Source: Halomarina rubra
GTDB taxonomy: Archaea; Halobacteriota; Halobacteria; Halobacteriales; Haloarculaceae
NCBI RefSeq assembly: GCF_023699475.1
Contig: NZ_JALXFV010000003.1
Location: 612,878-676,877 of the forward strand
Length of the DNA: 64,000 bases
Direction: 5' to 3'
The notes under the pieces are model-generated. The model had not been told where the DNA came from, did not search any database, and saw nothing but the letters and a program-made list of their open reading frames with translations. This document shows, in pieces, positions 8,643 to 31,567 of the stretch. Position numbers and translations under genes: made by a program. How positions within the stretch are numbered: the stretch's first letter is position 1; the number at the start of each line of letters is the position of its first letter.

Positions 8643-9125
8643 ATGAACCGCCGAGCGTTCCTCCGTTCTGCCACCCCGCTCGCGCTGGTTGGACTCGCCG
8701 GTTGTAGTGGACTGGCCGCGTCTCCGAACGGTGCGGACTCCTCGTTCGTCGACGACTGGGACTGTGCGTTCACCGAGGGCGGCGACATGTGCCGACGGCT
8801 CGAACAGACCGAGGTCGACCACTTCGTCTACCTCGTCAGGGAGAACACGATTCGAATCGAGGGCTGTTACAGCTACGGCCCCTCGGACTGCGACGACCCG
8901 GCCGTCCTCGGCGTCGGGTACGACGCGGACGCCGACGAACTGGTCGCCCGGTTCGGCGCGAAAGACGGGAAGAACGCGGTCGAGGAGTACTTCCACCCGG
9001 GCTGCAACGGTGCCTCCGCTATCGTCGGGTACTCGATGACCGTCAGAACGACCGGCCTCCCGGAGACGGTTCGCGTCGTCGAAGCCGGGAGCGGCGAGGA
9101 GCGTTCGGCGACGTACCGACCCTGA
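8643..9125 (+). CDS. Tat-exported lipoprotein of unknown function
   Basis: The 160-residue product starts MNRRAFLRSATPLALVGLAGC. This is a twin-arginine signal (RRAFLR) followed by a hydrophobic core and a lipobox (LAGC, Cys 21), so it is expected on the outer face of the membrane, anchored by lipid. The mature part has several more cysteines (WDCAF, DMCRRLE, GCYSYGPSDCDD, PGCNGAS), unusual for a halophile surface protein, so disulfides are likely. A more upstream in-frame ATG (8622) exists, but the signal peptide fits the 8643 start. It ends ten bases before the convergent dehydrogenase gene. Confidence 0.8.
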   Translation: MNRRAFLRSATPLALVGLAGCSGLAASPNGADSSFVDDWDCAFTEGGDMCRRLEQTEVDHFVYLVRENTIRIEGCYSYGPSDCDDPAVLGVGYDADADELVARFGAKDGKNAVEEYFHPGCNGASAIVGYSMTVRTTGLPETVRVVEAGSGEERSATYRP

Positions 9126-12994: not shown

Positions 12995-13462
12995 ATGCCC
13001 GACTGTCCGCTCGCCGACGAGTGCCCCAGTTTCTCCGAGCGTATCGAGGGGATGGGCTGTCAACACTACACCAGCCGTAGCGGCACGGAGTGGTGCCAGC
13101 ACTACAGTCAGCCCATTCGCGACCTGAAGTCCCAGCCGGTGAAACCCGGCGAGGAGGTGGTCGTCGAGGTGACGGACATCCACCGGAGCGGTGCGGGCGT
13201 CGGTCGGACCGACGACGGGTTCATCATCCTCGTCGACGGCATCCTCCCGGACGCCCGCGCCCGCGTGAAGGTGACGAAGGTCCGCTCGAACCACGCGCAG
13301 GGCGAGGAGGTCGAACGCCTCCCGATGGAGGACGAGGAGGACGACGGGAGCGACGAGACCGACGAGGAGGCGACCGCGGACGACGACGACGACGAGGACG
13401 ACGGGCCGAGACGCCCGCGCCGCGAGCGACTGGGCAGTCGCGACAACTTCTGGGGCTCGTAA
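12995..13462 (+). CDS. TRAM domain protein with cysteine-rich N-terminus
   Basis: The 155-residue protein has four cysteines in the first 35 residues (C4, C10, C22, C34, in CPLADECPSF, GMGCQHY and EWCQHY), which could bind zinc. A TRAM domain follows at about residues 52-112, with the typical GEEVVVEVTDIHRSGAGVGR and GILPDARARVKVTKV. TRAM domains bind RNA and occur in tRNA- and rRNA-modifying enzymes; here no enzyme domain is attached. The C-terminal 45 residues are very acidic (TADDDDDEDD). A TATA-like TTTAAT at 12967-12972 lies about 26 nt before the ATG, so the transcript is probably leaderless. Confidence 0.88.
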   Translation: MPDCPLADECPSFSERIEGMGCQHYTSRSGTEWCQHYSQPIRDLKSQPVKPGEEVVVEVTDIHRSGAGVGRTDDGFIILVDGILPDARARVKVTKVRSNHAQGEEVERLPMEDEEDDGSDETDEEATADDDDDEDDGPRRPRRERLGSRDNFWGS

Positions 13463-13570
13463 CCCGGCCGACCCGCGAGCGGACCGCGATACTTCTCCAC
13501 TCTCTCCGGAGTGTCTCCGCGCCCGGAGGGCCGCCGACGAGGCTAATGCCACCGCGAGCGTACTCGCTGC

Positions 13571-15538
13571 GTGAAAACTGGGCCGAGCGCTCGCGCGTCC
13601 ACGGGGACGCCACAGTCGCCGGGGTCGTCGACCGACGGCGAGGAGTCGACCGTCGAGCTACTCGGCGGGCTCGACATCGAGACGACCGCCGACATCGAGG
13701 TGCCCGACCGACTCATCGACCAGGTCATCGGGCAGGACCGCGCCCGCGACGTCGTCCTGAAGGCAGCCCAACAGCGCCGTCACGTCATGATGATCGGCAC
13801 CCCGGGGACGGGGAAGTCGATGCTCGCGAAGGCCATGAGTCAGCTCCTCCCTCGCGAGGAACTTCGGGACGTCCTCGTCTCCCACAACCCGAACGACGGC
13901 AACCGGCCGACTATCCGGACGGTGCCCGCGGGCGAGGGGCAAGCCATCATCGAGCAACACCGCGTCGAGGCGCGCAAACGCGGTCAGCTCCGGACGATGG
14001 TGATGTGGCTCGTCCTCGTCGCCATCCTCGCGTACGCCTTCCTCGTCGCCGGCGAACCGCTGCTGGGCGTCCTGGCGGCCGTCGTCGTCTTCTACATCTT
14101 CCGCGTCAGCGGCCGCACCCAGCGCGCGAGCGTTCCGAAGATACTCGTCAGCAACGCCGACCGCCACGTCGCACCGTTCGAGGACGCGACGGGCGCACAC
14201 GCCGGCGCGCTGCTCGGCGACGTCCGCCACGACCCCTACCAGTCGGGCGGTCTCGCGACGCCGAGTCACGACCGGGTCGAGGCCGGGGCCATCCACAAGG
14301 CCAGCAACGGCGTGCTGTTCGTCGACGAGATCAACACACTCGGCGTCCGCTCCCAGCAGAAGCTGATGACGGCCATCCAGGAAGGGGAGTTCTCCATCAC
14401 CGGCCAGTCCGAACAGTCCTCGGGGGCGATGGTGAAGACCGACCCCGTGCCGACGGACTTCGTGATGATCGCCGCGGGCAACATGGACGCGATGGGGAAC
14501 ATGCACCCCGCCCTGCGCTCGCGAATCAAGGGGTACGGCTACGAGGTGTACATGGACGACACCATCGAGGACACGCCCGAGACCCGCCGGAAGTACGCCC
14601 GGTTCGTCGCCCAGGAGGTCGAGAACGACGGCCGCCTGCCCCACTTCGAGGCCGACGCGGTCGCCGAAATCGTCCTCGAAGCCCGACGGCGGGCGGGCCG
14701 GAAGGGTCACCTCACCCTGGCGTTCCGCAACCTCGGTGGGCTGGTCCGCGTCGCGGGCGACATCGCGCGCGACGAGGGTGCACCGGTGACGACCCGCGCA
14801 CACGTGCTGGCGGCGAAACGCCGGGCGCGCTCCATCGAGCAGCAGTTGGCCGACGAGTACATCGAGCGCCGCAAGGACTACGACCTCTCGCTGGTCGAGG
14901 GGAGCGTCGTCGGTCGGGTCAACGGTCTCGCGGTGATGGGCGAGGACTCGGGCATCGTCCTGCCCGTCATCGCCGAGGTGACGCAGTCACAGGGGGCCGG
15001 TGGGGTCATCGCCACCGGGGGACTCCAGGAGGTCGCCACCGAGGCGGTCCAGAACGTCTCGGCGGTCGTCAAGAAGTACGCCAGCGTCGACTTGGACGAG
15101 ATGGACGTCCACGTCCAGTTCGTCGGCGCGGGGGCCGGCGGCGTCGACGGCGACTCCGCGAGCGTCACCGTCGCGACGGCCGTCGTCAGCGCGCTCGAAG
15201 CCATCCCGGTCGACCAGTCGGTCGCGATGACCGGGTCGCTGTCGGTGCGCGGGGACGTCCTCCCAGTCGGCGGGGTCACCTACAAGATCGAGGCCGCCGC
15301 GAAGGCCGGTCTGGAGACCATCGTCATCCCCGCCGCGAACGAACAGGACGTGCTCGTCGAGTCGGAGTACCGCGACCGGGTCCGTATCGTCCCCGTGAGC
15401 CACATCAGCGAGGTGCTCGACGTGGCGCTCGTCGACGCCGTCGAGAAGGAGTCGCTGCTCGACCGCCTCTCGTCGTACGCGCCGGGACCGGGCCGTGACC
15501 GCAACCGGGGACCGGGGCCGACGCCCGCCCCGCAGTGA
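13571..15538 (+). CDS. lonB: Membrane-bound ATP-dependent protease LonB
   Basis: The 655-residue archaeal LonB degrades proteins at the membrane and is a major regulatory protease in haloarchaea. An AAA+ module has Walker A GTPGTGKS (residues 76-83) and Walker B LFVDE (249-253). Two transmembrane helices (about 143-160 and 163-178) are inserted between the Walker A and B motifs, as in all LonB. The C-terminal serine protease domain has the Ser-Lys dyad: S529 in GDSAS and K572 in GVTYKIEAAAK. The start is a GTG. The last 20 residues are Pro/Gly/Arg-rich and not conserved. The gene is preceded by the TRAM gene and followed by a Tfx gene on the same strand. Confidence 0.97.
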   Translation: MKTGPSARASTGTPQSPGSSTDGEESTVELLGGLDIETTADIEVPDRLIDQVIGQDRARDVVLKAAQQRRHVMMIGTPGTGKSMLAKAMSQLLPREELRDVLVSHNPNDGNRPTIRTVPAGEGQAIIEQHRVEARKRGQLRTMVMWLVLVAILAYAFLVAGEPLLGVLAAVVVFYIFRVSGRTQRASVPKILVSNADRHVAPFEDATGAHAGALLGDVRHDPYQSGGLATPSHDRVEAGAIHKASNGVLFVDEINTLGVRSQQKLMTAIQEGEFSITGQSEQSSGAMVKTDPVPTDFVMIAAGNMDAMGNMHPALRSRIKGYGYEVYMDDTIEDTPETRRKYARFVAQEVENDGRLPHFEADAVAEIVLEARRRAGRKGHLTLAFRNLGGLVRVAGDIARDEGAPVTTRAHVLAAKRRARSIEQQLADEYIERRKDYDLSLVEGSVVGRVNGLAVMGEDSGIVLPVIAEVTQSQGAGGVIATGGLQEVATEAVQNVSAVVKKYASVDLDEMDVHVQFVGAGAGGVDGDSASVTVATAVVSALEAIPVDQSVAMTGSLSVRGDVLPVGGVTYKIEAAAKAGLETIVIPAANEQDVLVESEYRDRVRIVPVSHISEVLDVALVDAVEKESLLDRLSSYAPGPGRDRNRGPGPTPAPQ

Positions 15539-15614
15539 CCGGACGCTCGGTCGCGAACCGACGGTTCGCTGCTGAACCACGGGCTACAAGCGCCTGCCAC
15601 GCCAACCGTCGCTC

Positions 15615-16076
15615 GTGACCGACCCCGCCGACGTCGACGACATCCTCGGCCGCACCGGGTTCGACCCAGAGACGAGCGTGCTCACCCGGCGGCAGGCCGA
15701 GGTGCTCGCCCTCCGCGAGCACGGGTTGGCGCAGGCGGCCATCGCCGAGTGGCTCGGCACCTCTCGGGCCAACGTCTCTTCCATCGAGGCCAGCGCCCGC
15801 GAGAACGTTGCGAAGGCCCGCGAGACGCTCGCGTTCGCCGAGGCGCTCCGTGCGCCCGTCAGACTGACCGTCGAGACGGGGACAGACCTCTACGACGTCC
15901 CCCAGCGCGTCTACTCGGCGTGTGACGATGCGGGAGTGAAGGTCAACTACGCGGCTCCGGAGCTGATGAAACTCGTCAGCGACGCTGCCGGCGACGCGGT
16001 CCGCGGGCGCGAGGTACGCCGCGACCTGCTCGTCGGCGTCACGAGCGAGGGCCAGGTCCGGGTTCGGACGTCGTAA
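15615..16076 (+). CDS. Tfx family DNA-binding protein
   Basis: The 153-residue protein begins from GTG at 15615. An N-terminal helix-turn-helix reads LTRRQAEVLALREHGLAQAAI, then AEWLGTSRANVSSIEASARENV, which is the Tfx/sigma-70 region 4-like pattern. The C-terminal 80 residues are the Tfx domain. Tfx was named for a methanogen protein that binds near the molybdenum formylmethanofuran dehydrogenase promoter, a pathway absent from haloarchaea, so the target here is unknown. It starts 76 bp after lonB on the same strand. Confidence 0.9.
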   Translation: MTDPADVDDILGRTGFDPETSVLTRRQAEVLALREHGLAQAAIAEWLGTSRANVSSIEASARENVAKARETLAFAEALRAPVRLTVETGTDLYDVPQRVYSACDDAGVKVNYAAPELMKLVSDAAGDAVRGREVRRDLLVGVTSEGQVRVRTS

Positions 16077-30166: not shown

Positions 30167-30269
30167 AACCCGGGCGTGTGCGACACCGCCGGACCGGGCG
30201 ACGGGCGCGTGTGAGCGCTCCGCGCACGACCGAGCAACACCGATTCCCGGAACCGACGGAGTAGTTGTG

Positions 30270-30941
30270 ATGAATCATCGACGGGTCGGTCGACGGGAGG
30301 TGCTCGCCGGACTCGCCGGCGGTGGCGTGGCCGCGCTCGCCGGCTGTCTCGGCGTCGGCGGCTCCGACACCAGTCCGCTCGCCGACCACCCCGTCGCTGA
30401 GGGACTCGCCGACCAGCCCACGCAGGGGCCGGCGGTCGGCGACGCGACGGCGACCGTCGTCGCCTTCGAGGACCCCTCCTGCGTGCGCTGTGCGGCGTTC
30501 CACCGCGACACCGTCCCGCGTCTTCGTTCGGAACTCGTCGACCCCGGAACCGTGAGCTACGTCCTCCGACCCTACCCGGTCGTCTTCGAGTGGGGCGAGG
30601 CTGCGACGCGGGCGCTGTGGGCGACCTACGAACGCGACGCGGCGGCGTTCTGGGGACTGCTCGACCACTACTTCACCGACCAGGACGCGTTCTCGTCGGG
30701 AAACGTCCTCGACCTGACCGAGGCGTGGCTGACCGCCGAGACGAGCGTCGACGCTGCCGCGGTCCGCGAGGCGGCCGCCGCCGACGGCTTCCCCGCGCCC
30801 GTCCAGAGGAACCTCGACGTGGGTGAGGCCGCGGACGTCACCGGCACGCCGACGGTGTTCCTGTTCCGCGACGGCGAGTACCGGACCAGCGCGAGCGGCA
30901 GCGTGAGCTACGAGTTCGTCACGAGCGCCTTAGAGCTATGA
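30270..30941 (+). CDS. DsbA-like thioredoxin-fold lipoprotein
   Basis: The 223-residue protein begins with a Tat signal (RRVGRREVLAGLAG) and lipobox LAGC (Cys 26), so it is anchored outside the membrane. The thioredoxin fold starts at ATVVAFEDPSCVRCAAFHRD, with the active-site pair C71-V-R-C74. The cis-proline is in VTGTPTVFLF (P194), and the insert has the helical DsbA/FrnE pattern. It probably exchanges disulfides in exported proteins. ATG 30270 is used; a GTG one codon earlier is possible. Its stop overlaps the next ATG (ATGA), so it is made with a membrane protein carrying a CxxC pair. Confidence 0.88.
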   Translation: MNHRRVGRREVLAGLAGGGVAALAGCLGVGGSDTSPLADHPVAEGLADQPTQGPAVGDATATVVAFEDPSCVRCAAFHRDTVPRLRSELVDPGTVSYVLRPYPVVFEWGEAATRALWATYERDAAAFWGLLDHYFTDQDAFSSGNVLDLTEAWLTAETSVDAAAVREAAAADGFPAPVQRNLDVGEAADVTGTPTVFLFRDGEYRTSASGSVSYEFVTSALEL

Positions 30942-31567
30942 GCGGGGCGAACCGCGTTCGACGAGCGCTCGGTGGCGTCTCGTTACCCACTCGGCTCGAC
31001 GACTGGCGACTCGCCGCCCGGACCGCGCGGCTGGTGCTCACGGTCCCCCTCTACGCCGTCGTCGCGCTGGTCGCGGCGGTGCTGGCGCTCTCGGTGTTCG
31101 TGCTCGCACAGAACCTCACGGTCGTCGGCGACGTGGTCGGGGGCGGTCTGAGCGGTCTCCCGGTCGCGACGCGCCTCGAGATTCTCGCGGAGCTGTACCC
31201 GTTCGTCGGCACGTCGTTCGACCCGCTGGCGGGCGCGGCGGTGCTCGCGCTCGCCACACTGACGGGCGTCAACCTCGCGATGGTCGCCTACCACGTCCGC
31301 GAACACGGGCTGACGGTGTCGGGGAGCGGCGGTGGCCTCGCCGCCGTCGTCCTCGGGACGCTCGGGGCCGGCTGTGCGGCCTGCGGCACGGCGGTGCTCG
31401 CTGGCGTGCTCTCGCTGGTGGGCGTCGGCGGGTTGAGCTTCCTCCCGCTGGAGGGTCTGGAGTTCGCGCTGGTCGGCCTGCTCGCGGTGCTCCTCTCGAC
31501 GTACTGGCTGGCCGACGGGATGCGCGGCGGCGAGATCAACGGCTGTCCGGTCGACGTCTACCGCTGA
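30938..31567 (+). CDS. Membrane protein with CAAC motif, candidate redox partner of the DsbA-like protein
   Basis: The 209-residue protein has about four to five transmembrane segments (near 33-58, 97-118, 132-155, 156-170 and 175-192). The pair C146-A-A-C149 lies in or next to a membrane segment in the sequence GTLGAGCAACGTAVLAG, with a further Cys near the C-terminus (C203). It is translationally coupled to the DsbA-like gene. A membrane CxxC next to a DsbA-like protein recalls DsbB, VKOR or CcdA, but the sequence is not one of these as far as I can tell. Its 3' end overlaps the convergent gene by 10 bp. Confidence 0.8.
   Translation: MSGANRVRRALGGVSLPTRLDDWRLAARTARLVLTVPLYAVVALVAAVLALSVFVLAQNLTVVGDVVGGGLSGLPVATRLEILAELYPFVGTSFDPLAGAAVLALATLTGVNLAMVAYHVREHGLTVSGSGGGLAAVVLGTLGAGCAACGTAVLAGVLSLVGVGGLSFLPLEGLEFALVGLLAVLLSTYWLADGMRGGEINGCPVDVYR

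Follow-up and report, generated by a model that had tools for sequence, protein, structure and literature searches.

A conserved haloarchaeal gene pair of a DsbA-like lipoprotein and a four-helix CxxC membrane protein: a putative thiol-redox unit shared with small-genome bacteria

To our knowledge, DsbB and VKOR, which are joined by homology, are the only oxidising membrane partners of DsbA in general use, and the main reducing membrane partner of DsbA-type proteins is CcdA/DsbD. In the window (the whole stretch of 64,000 nucleotides of Halomarina rubra DNA analysed here), the gene of a DsbA-like lipoprotein runs directly into that of a membrane protein with a cysteine pair in a membrane segment. 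Does this pair belong to one of the known systems and, if it does not, which way might electrons move between its two proteins? As described below, the two genes are a real, conserved and self-contained unit. Judged from its sequences, this would be a thiol-redox unit that works like DsbA with a membrane redox partner. The features of the locus are listed in Table 1.

Table 1. Features of the two-gene locus, in positions of the window.
Feature	Position	Strand	Observation
DsbA-like lipoprotein gene	30270..30941	+	223 aa, BdbD / alpha-DsbA1-type fold; PF13462, AlphaFold2, Foldseek
C26, putative lipobox cysteine	30345..30347	+	Cys in 62/71 aligned relatives, 4 gaps
C71-V-R-C74, active-site CxxC	30480..30491	+	C71 in 69/71, C74 in 69/71 aligned relatives
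T193-P194	30846..30851	+	T in 68/71, P in 70/71 aligned relatives
ATGA stop/start overlap	30938..30941	+	Both genes; same overlap (-4) in many relatives
Unnamed four-helix membrane protein	30938..31567	+	209 aa, predicted N-in/C-in; no family match
C146-A-A-C149 within GAGCAACG of helix 3	31373..31384	+	CxxC in all 131 distinct relatives that have residues at these positions (132 rows in total)
C203, third conserved cysteine, C-terminal tail (GCPVD)	31544..31546	+	Cys in 124/132 distinct relatives

The two proteins and their relation to known families

The lipoprotein gene was taken to start at its ATG at 30270, and a second in-frame start lies at 30267. Its product matches PF13462 (Thioredoxin_4, E 2.3e-15) and PF13098 (E 7.9e-8), both above the Pfam cut-off, and scores slightly below the cut-off of PF01323 (DSBA; 24.6 bits vs. 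25.6). Its AlphaFold2 model has a mean pLDDT of 90.9, and the top Foldseek neighbours of this model are the Wolbachia alpha-DsbA1 (3f4r, E 1.3e-10) and the Bacillus BdbD (3eu4, E 2.9e-10). The protein has the active-site CxxC and a T193-P194 that we take to be the cis-proline position of the thioredoxin fold. With profile match, DsbA fold, active-site CxxC and cis-proline all present, the lipoprotein is a member of the DsbA family. By motif, a putative Tat-type lipoprotein signal occupies its N-terminus (RRVGRREVLAGLAGGGVAALAGC). The initial annotation had described a surface-anchored CVRC thioredoxin domain, which agrees with the PF13462 match, the conserved C71 and C74, and the putative lipobox cysteine. 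The commonest CxxC motifs among the 87 rows of DsbA-like proteins from the window's subfamily are CPTC (26) and CPRC (12), and CPFC is found in 20 of 32 rows of the sister subfamily and in 14 of 19 bacterial rows, with loci assigned to subfamilies by hand for these counts.

For the second protein, AlphaFold2 predicts membrane helices at residues 37-58, 96-122, 134-161 and 173-197. This model was built on a 37-row alignment, has a mean pLDDT of 78.5 and is weakest at the CxxC, where residues 146-148 fall below 50. The protein is predicted to be polytopic with C146 and C149 at a membrane segment, as had been annotated, and the pair sits in the middle of helix 3. The mean number of lysines and arginines per segment is 3.87 in the N-terminal tail, 1.77 in outer loop 1 (34 aa), 2.60 in the inner loop (16 aa), 0.27 in outer loop 3 (12 aa) and 2.03 in the C-terminal tail (13 aa). 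From this distribution both termini, including C203, are predicted to be inside the cell. Alignment A1 used 40 rows, from 45 non-redundant sequences of 72 relatives, and omits L026, L049, L058, L065 and L068, which are frame-broken, truncated or start-ambiguous.

C146, C149 and C203 are the only conserved cysteines of the membrane protein. Over 132 distinct aligned rows, both cysteines of the CxxC occur in all 131 that have residues there, and C203 occurs in 124. The CxxC pair that had drawn attention in the window is retained in its homologues. The conservation of C203 is new here; this cysteine is absent from 7 of the 132 relatives, two of which end at contig ends. Around the pair, G145, C146, C149 and G150 of a GxGCxxCG motif are invariant in all 30 rows of an alignment that covers haloarchaea and one bacterial phylum.

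Pfam and NCBIfam contain no match of weight to the window's membrane protein, and members of its family are labelled 'hypothetical protein' in plasmid records. When a 30-row alignment was compared with both libraries, no family was matched by more than one of the 30 members (best E 0.0065), and none of them matched the curated transporter families for mercury or other metals in Pfam and NCBIfam. A profile of the protein found nothing better than E 2 among the sequences of solved structures, and Foldseek found nothing below E 1 for its model among PDB and viral models. The top VIA-align hit, APH-1B (Z 5.2), lies inside the described background of that tool. These fold comparisons list no VKOR chain, but with a model of low certainty at the CxxC we draw no conclusion from the lack of DsbB, VKOR or CcdA hits.

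Three membrane partners were considered as candidate families and rejected. For DsbB, the protein has no PF02600 match, and hhalign gave 0.2% against haloarchaeal and bacterial DsbB alignments. For VKOR, it has no PF07884 match and reached 0.9%, with the CxxC segments left unaligned. For CcdA/DsbD_TM, it has no PF02683 match and reached 0.6% against a haloarchaeal CcdA alignment of only 4 rows. As the positive control of DsbB against VKOR, with similarly small alignments, gave 78.6%, we do not file the membrane protein under DsbB, VKOR or CcdA. The initial annotation had called it not clearly any of the three, and our profile searches bear this out, finding no known transporter or Dsb membrane protein. 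At the level of sequence, the protein stands outside every family in the libraries searched.

Gene pairing and distribution

The two genes overlap by four bases, as was noted before, and the ATGA was seen in the sequence. A divergent DUF7344 gene lies 5' of the pair, and on its 3' side an opposite-strand ORF ends at 31558 against the membrane gene. The pair is therefore a two-gene unit. We then counted the loci at which the stretch with the membrane gene also contains a DsbA-like ORF, in four sets that overlap in species. Such an ORF is present at 30 of 30 loci from the single-sequence search of the host's family and at 42 of 42 GTDB loci, 40 of them on the same strand (L055 and L060 have it on the opposite strand). 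It is also present at 29 of 30 loci from a 392-genome sample of the phylum, counting the best member per locus (33 rows); 25 of these are on the same strand, L174, L175, L180 and L181 have it on the opposite strand, and L179 lacks it. Among 23 bacterial loci, 17 have the DsbA-like ORF, at a distance of 546-622 bases from the membrane gene in L141 and L150. L137, L139, L144, L146, L147 and L148 lack it; at five of these six loci the membrane protein is a divergent cousin whose motif is CPVCG, CPTCG or CATCG. In a first pass with plain tblastn, DsbA-like genes were near the membrane gene at 71 of 72 loci; at the one locus missed, L071, the membrane gene is flanked by DsbA-like genes on either side. 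The pairing of the two genes holds in two domains, archaea and bacteria.

Around the 42 GTDB loci only the pair itself recurs; the next cluster of genes (9 loci) resembles an opposite-strand shadow ORF. No fusions of DsbA-like and membrane domains were found among the ORFs of all loci examined, and a methanogen-side relative (L182, genome G808) has no DsbA within the 3.7 kb examined. With four PF13462 matches in the window's genome, adjacency by chance is estimated at about one in a thousand for a 4-Mb genome. Control loci had a DsbA-like ORF nearby at 1 of 8 haloarchaeal DsbB, 0 of 4 haloarchaeal VKOR, 4 of 6 bacterial VKOR, 1 of 2 bacterial-phylum DsbB and 0 of 4 CcdA genes; these are best-scoring loci only, counted at E 1e-6 vs. 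1e-4 in the pairing count, with a DsbA-like profile built from the new family's own partners, which may miss divergent DsbAs beside DsbB. The invariance of GxGCxxCG and the near-universal gene pairing are more than chance.

In the host's family, the membrane protein was found in 69 of 146 genomes by single-sequence search and in 87 of 146 by profile. A broader profile found it in 33 genomes of the 392-genome phylum sample, of which 32 belong to the order of the window's genome. The closest relative is given both by a genome of the same genus (G054) and by the Halomarina oriensis record NZ_WSZK01000015.1. One of the 42 GTDB loci, L071, is bacterial ('bacterium isolate WY4.bin90', with a 0.9-Mb genome), and in its phylum, which has very small genomes, relatives occur in 20 of 332 genomes. 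One such genome carries two copies of the DsbA-membrane pair (L188:3776-6540 and 13295-15984), each next to putative genes of a BlaI-type regulator and of an M56 peptidase. The bacterial cousins at L139, L141, L147 and L148 are of the CPVCG or CPVCS type and continue into a long C-terminal extension, which brings them to about 470-550 aa; they have no adjoining DsbA except one 622 bases off. A small membrane protein of the GCPICN...CETC type lies beside the pair at 9 of 26 sister-subfamily loci (L117, L118, L128, L169, L170, L174, L176, L181 and L183); it matches the same profile weakly in some and may be a cousin.

The window's genome has four PF13462 matches: the lipoprotein described here, one at L185, one at L114 and a partial one. 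At L185, a DsbA gene (CPHC) is followed by DsbB with the same 4-base overlap, which means that the window's unit is arranged like a known redox pair. At L114, the gene after the PF13462 gene encodes a second, divergent member of the membrane family (G000:C10:696052-697325, L114:4053-5326 for the pair), and this second pair combines a CPFC DsbA with ASGCASCG and a tail cysteine. The next gene has what we take to be CcdA-like cysteine motifs, and no Pfam model recognises it. Apart from DsbB, the genome has no match to VKOR or PF02683, the latter being uncommon in the host's family (29 of 146 genomes). In several genomes of one genus (g3; e.g., G007:C46, G026:C2 and G031:C6), the contig that carries the pair also carries DsbB, at a distance of about 9-26 kb.

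Possible roles of the pair

Whichever the direction of transfer, the membrane protein is probably the redox partner of the DsbA-like protein. The initial annotation had cautiously proposed a disulfide-forming or disulfide-relaying pair, and this is supported by the conserved cysteines, the conserved pairing and the lack of homology to known transporters or Dsb membrane proteins, all of which are features of sequence and point to such a role. It had also taken a lipoprotein with several cysteines at 8643-9125 as proof that substrates exist. This lipoprotein-like ORF is real, with five cysteines after its lipobox, but it is 21 kb distant and no link between it and the pair was found, and we do not retain that argument.

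As the best explanation, at a probability of roughly 0.45, we propose that the unit is a transmembrane thiol relay with electrons flowing outward. Outside the cell, C146-C149 would exchange with the active site of the DsbA-like protein, and electrons would pass on through C203 on the predicted cytosolic side, so that the membrane protein would act like a CcdA/DsbD-type relay without kinship to CcdA. The outward direction, from a cytosolic thioredoxin to the membrane protein and on to the DsbA-like protein, is the step of which we are least confident; with such a flow the lipoprotein would stay reduced and would serve exported or metal-site proteins as an isomerase or reductase. Transfer to the cytosol by a relay is favoured by the predicted inside position of C203, the mid-membrane CxxC and the upstream thioredoxin genes of the sister subfamily. 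These genes encode WCGPC thioredoxins on the same strand at 7 of 26 sister-subfamily loci, vs. 0 of 42 when the window's subfamily is counted together with L071, where one locus has a thioredoxin downstream. Against a relay, the AlphaFold2 model is least certain at the CxxC, 7 of 132 relatives lack C203, the thioredoxin linkage is confined to the sister subfamily, and a membrane-embedded three-cysteine site could bind metal.

BdbD and alpha-DsbA1 are oxidases, and as the closest folds to the lipoprotein they favour an oxidative direction. The membrane protein might then be a quinone-linked oxidase, an analogue of DsbB and VKOR of separate origin that would re-oxidise the lipoprotein and pass its electrons to quinone, with C203 structural or resolving. 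The gene order of the pair, which is that of the DsbA-DsbB pair in the same genome, also points this way, as do the 24 of 66 good host-family genomes that have the protein and no DsbB, 22 of which also lack VKOR. Neither VKOR nor DsbB is found in 6 of 20 bacterial genomes with the protein. However, the protein coexists with DsbB in 42 of the 66 good genomes, its presence shows no association with DsbB over 146 genomes (Fisher p 0.31), and VKOR is about equally common in bacterial genomes with (12/20) and without it (9/20). A phyletic substitute for DsbB or VKOR was therefore rejected as an explanation, as these distributions in host-family and bacterial genomes show neither replacement of nor dependence on either protein. 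The single mid-helix CxxC and the predicted cytosolic cysteine also differ from the two external or lumenal pairs of DsbB and VKOR, and hhalign finds no sequence kinship to them. We regard an oxidase as rather doubtful and lean towards the relay to the cytosol.

An unlikely role is metal or sulfur handling. The three cysteines would then serve as a binding site for Cu(I) or a similar ion or as a carrier of sulfane sulfur, with donors or acceptors kept reduced by the DsbA-like protein. The CxxC and the tail cysteine would make a plausible soft-metal site; P-type-ATPase-like and cupredoxin-like genes follow the pair at the bacterial loci L071 and L188, and a rhodanese-like gene lies upstream at two sister-subfamily loci of one genus. 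However, the near-obligate partner is a thiol oxidoreductase, Pfam and NCBIfam show no match to metal-transport families, and the surroundings of the 42 loci in the window's subfamily have no metal gene in common. That the protein is a membrane anchor or scaffold for the lipoprotein, with purely structural cysteines, would fit the tight pairing by itself but is highly improbable, as the lipoprotein already has a lipobox and a scaffold does not need an invariant CxxC in a glycine-rich membrane helix.

If the relay is correct, which we consider possible though far from assured, the family would be a third class of DsbA membrane partner in haloarchaea and a small-genome bacterial phylum, unrelated in sequence to DsbB/VKOR and CcdA/DsbD, with a GxGCxxCG pair and one cytosolic cysteine as its relay. 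No description of this pair was found in the literature searched, a library with few subscription papers and preprints, or in passages of PMC4555120. Its recurrence in haloarchaea and distant small-genome bacteria points to an undescribed route of thiol electrons to exported proteins. A further family that is conserved together with its DsbA partner in archaea as well as in bacteria with very small genomes would close a gap in the picture of how haloarchaea treat exported thiols, would offer a simple membrane thiol-transfer system with three conserved cysteines, and would give a name to proteins now annotated as hypothetical.

Comparison with known thiol-redox systems

The lipoprotein shares its fold with BdbD and alpha-DsbA1 and differs from them in its putative Tat-type lipoprotein signal and its CVRC motif, at 16-21% identity. 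As in DsbA-DsbB, the gene of a thioredoxin-fold extracytoplasmic protein lies directly 5' of that of a four-helix CxxC membrane protein. DsbB has four helices and two external cysteine pairs, and the haloarchaeal DsbB alignment has PCxLCW near the N-terminus, whereas the window's protein has its CxxC in the middle of helix 3, one tail cysteine and no second external pair. Both DsbB and VKOR work through two external or lumenal cysteine pairs. The CxxC of VKOR lies in a membrane helix, within GAxCxxCxxSA, and by eye resembles the GAGCAACGSA of the window, but hhalign does not align them. CcdA has two membrane cysteines on separate helices, and these intramembrane cysteines carry thiol electrons across the membrane to an external thioredoxin-fold protein. 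In its alignment the conserved cysteines are divided between two segments, with C15/C16 on one and C129 on the other, unlike the CxxC on one helix and the tail cysteine of the window's protein, and the likeness of the unit to CcdA/DsbD lies in the proposed mechanism only.
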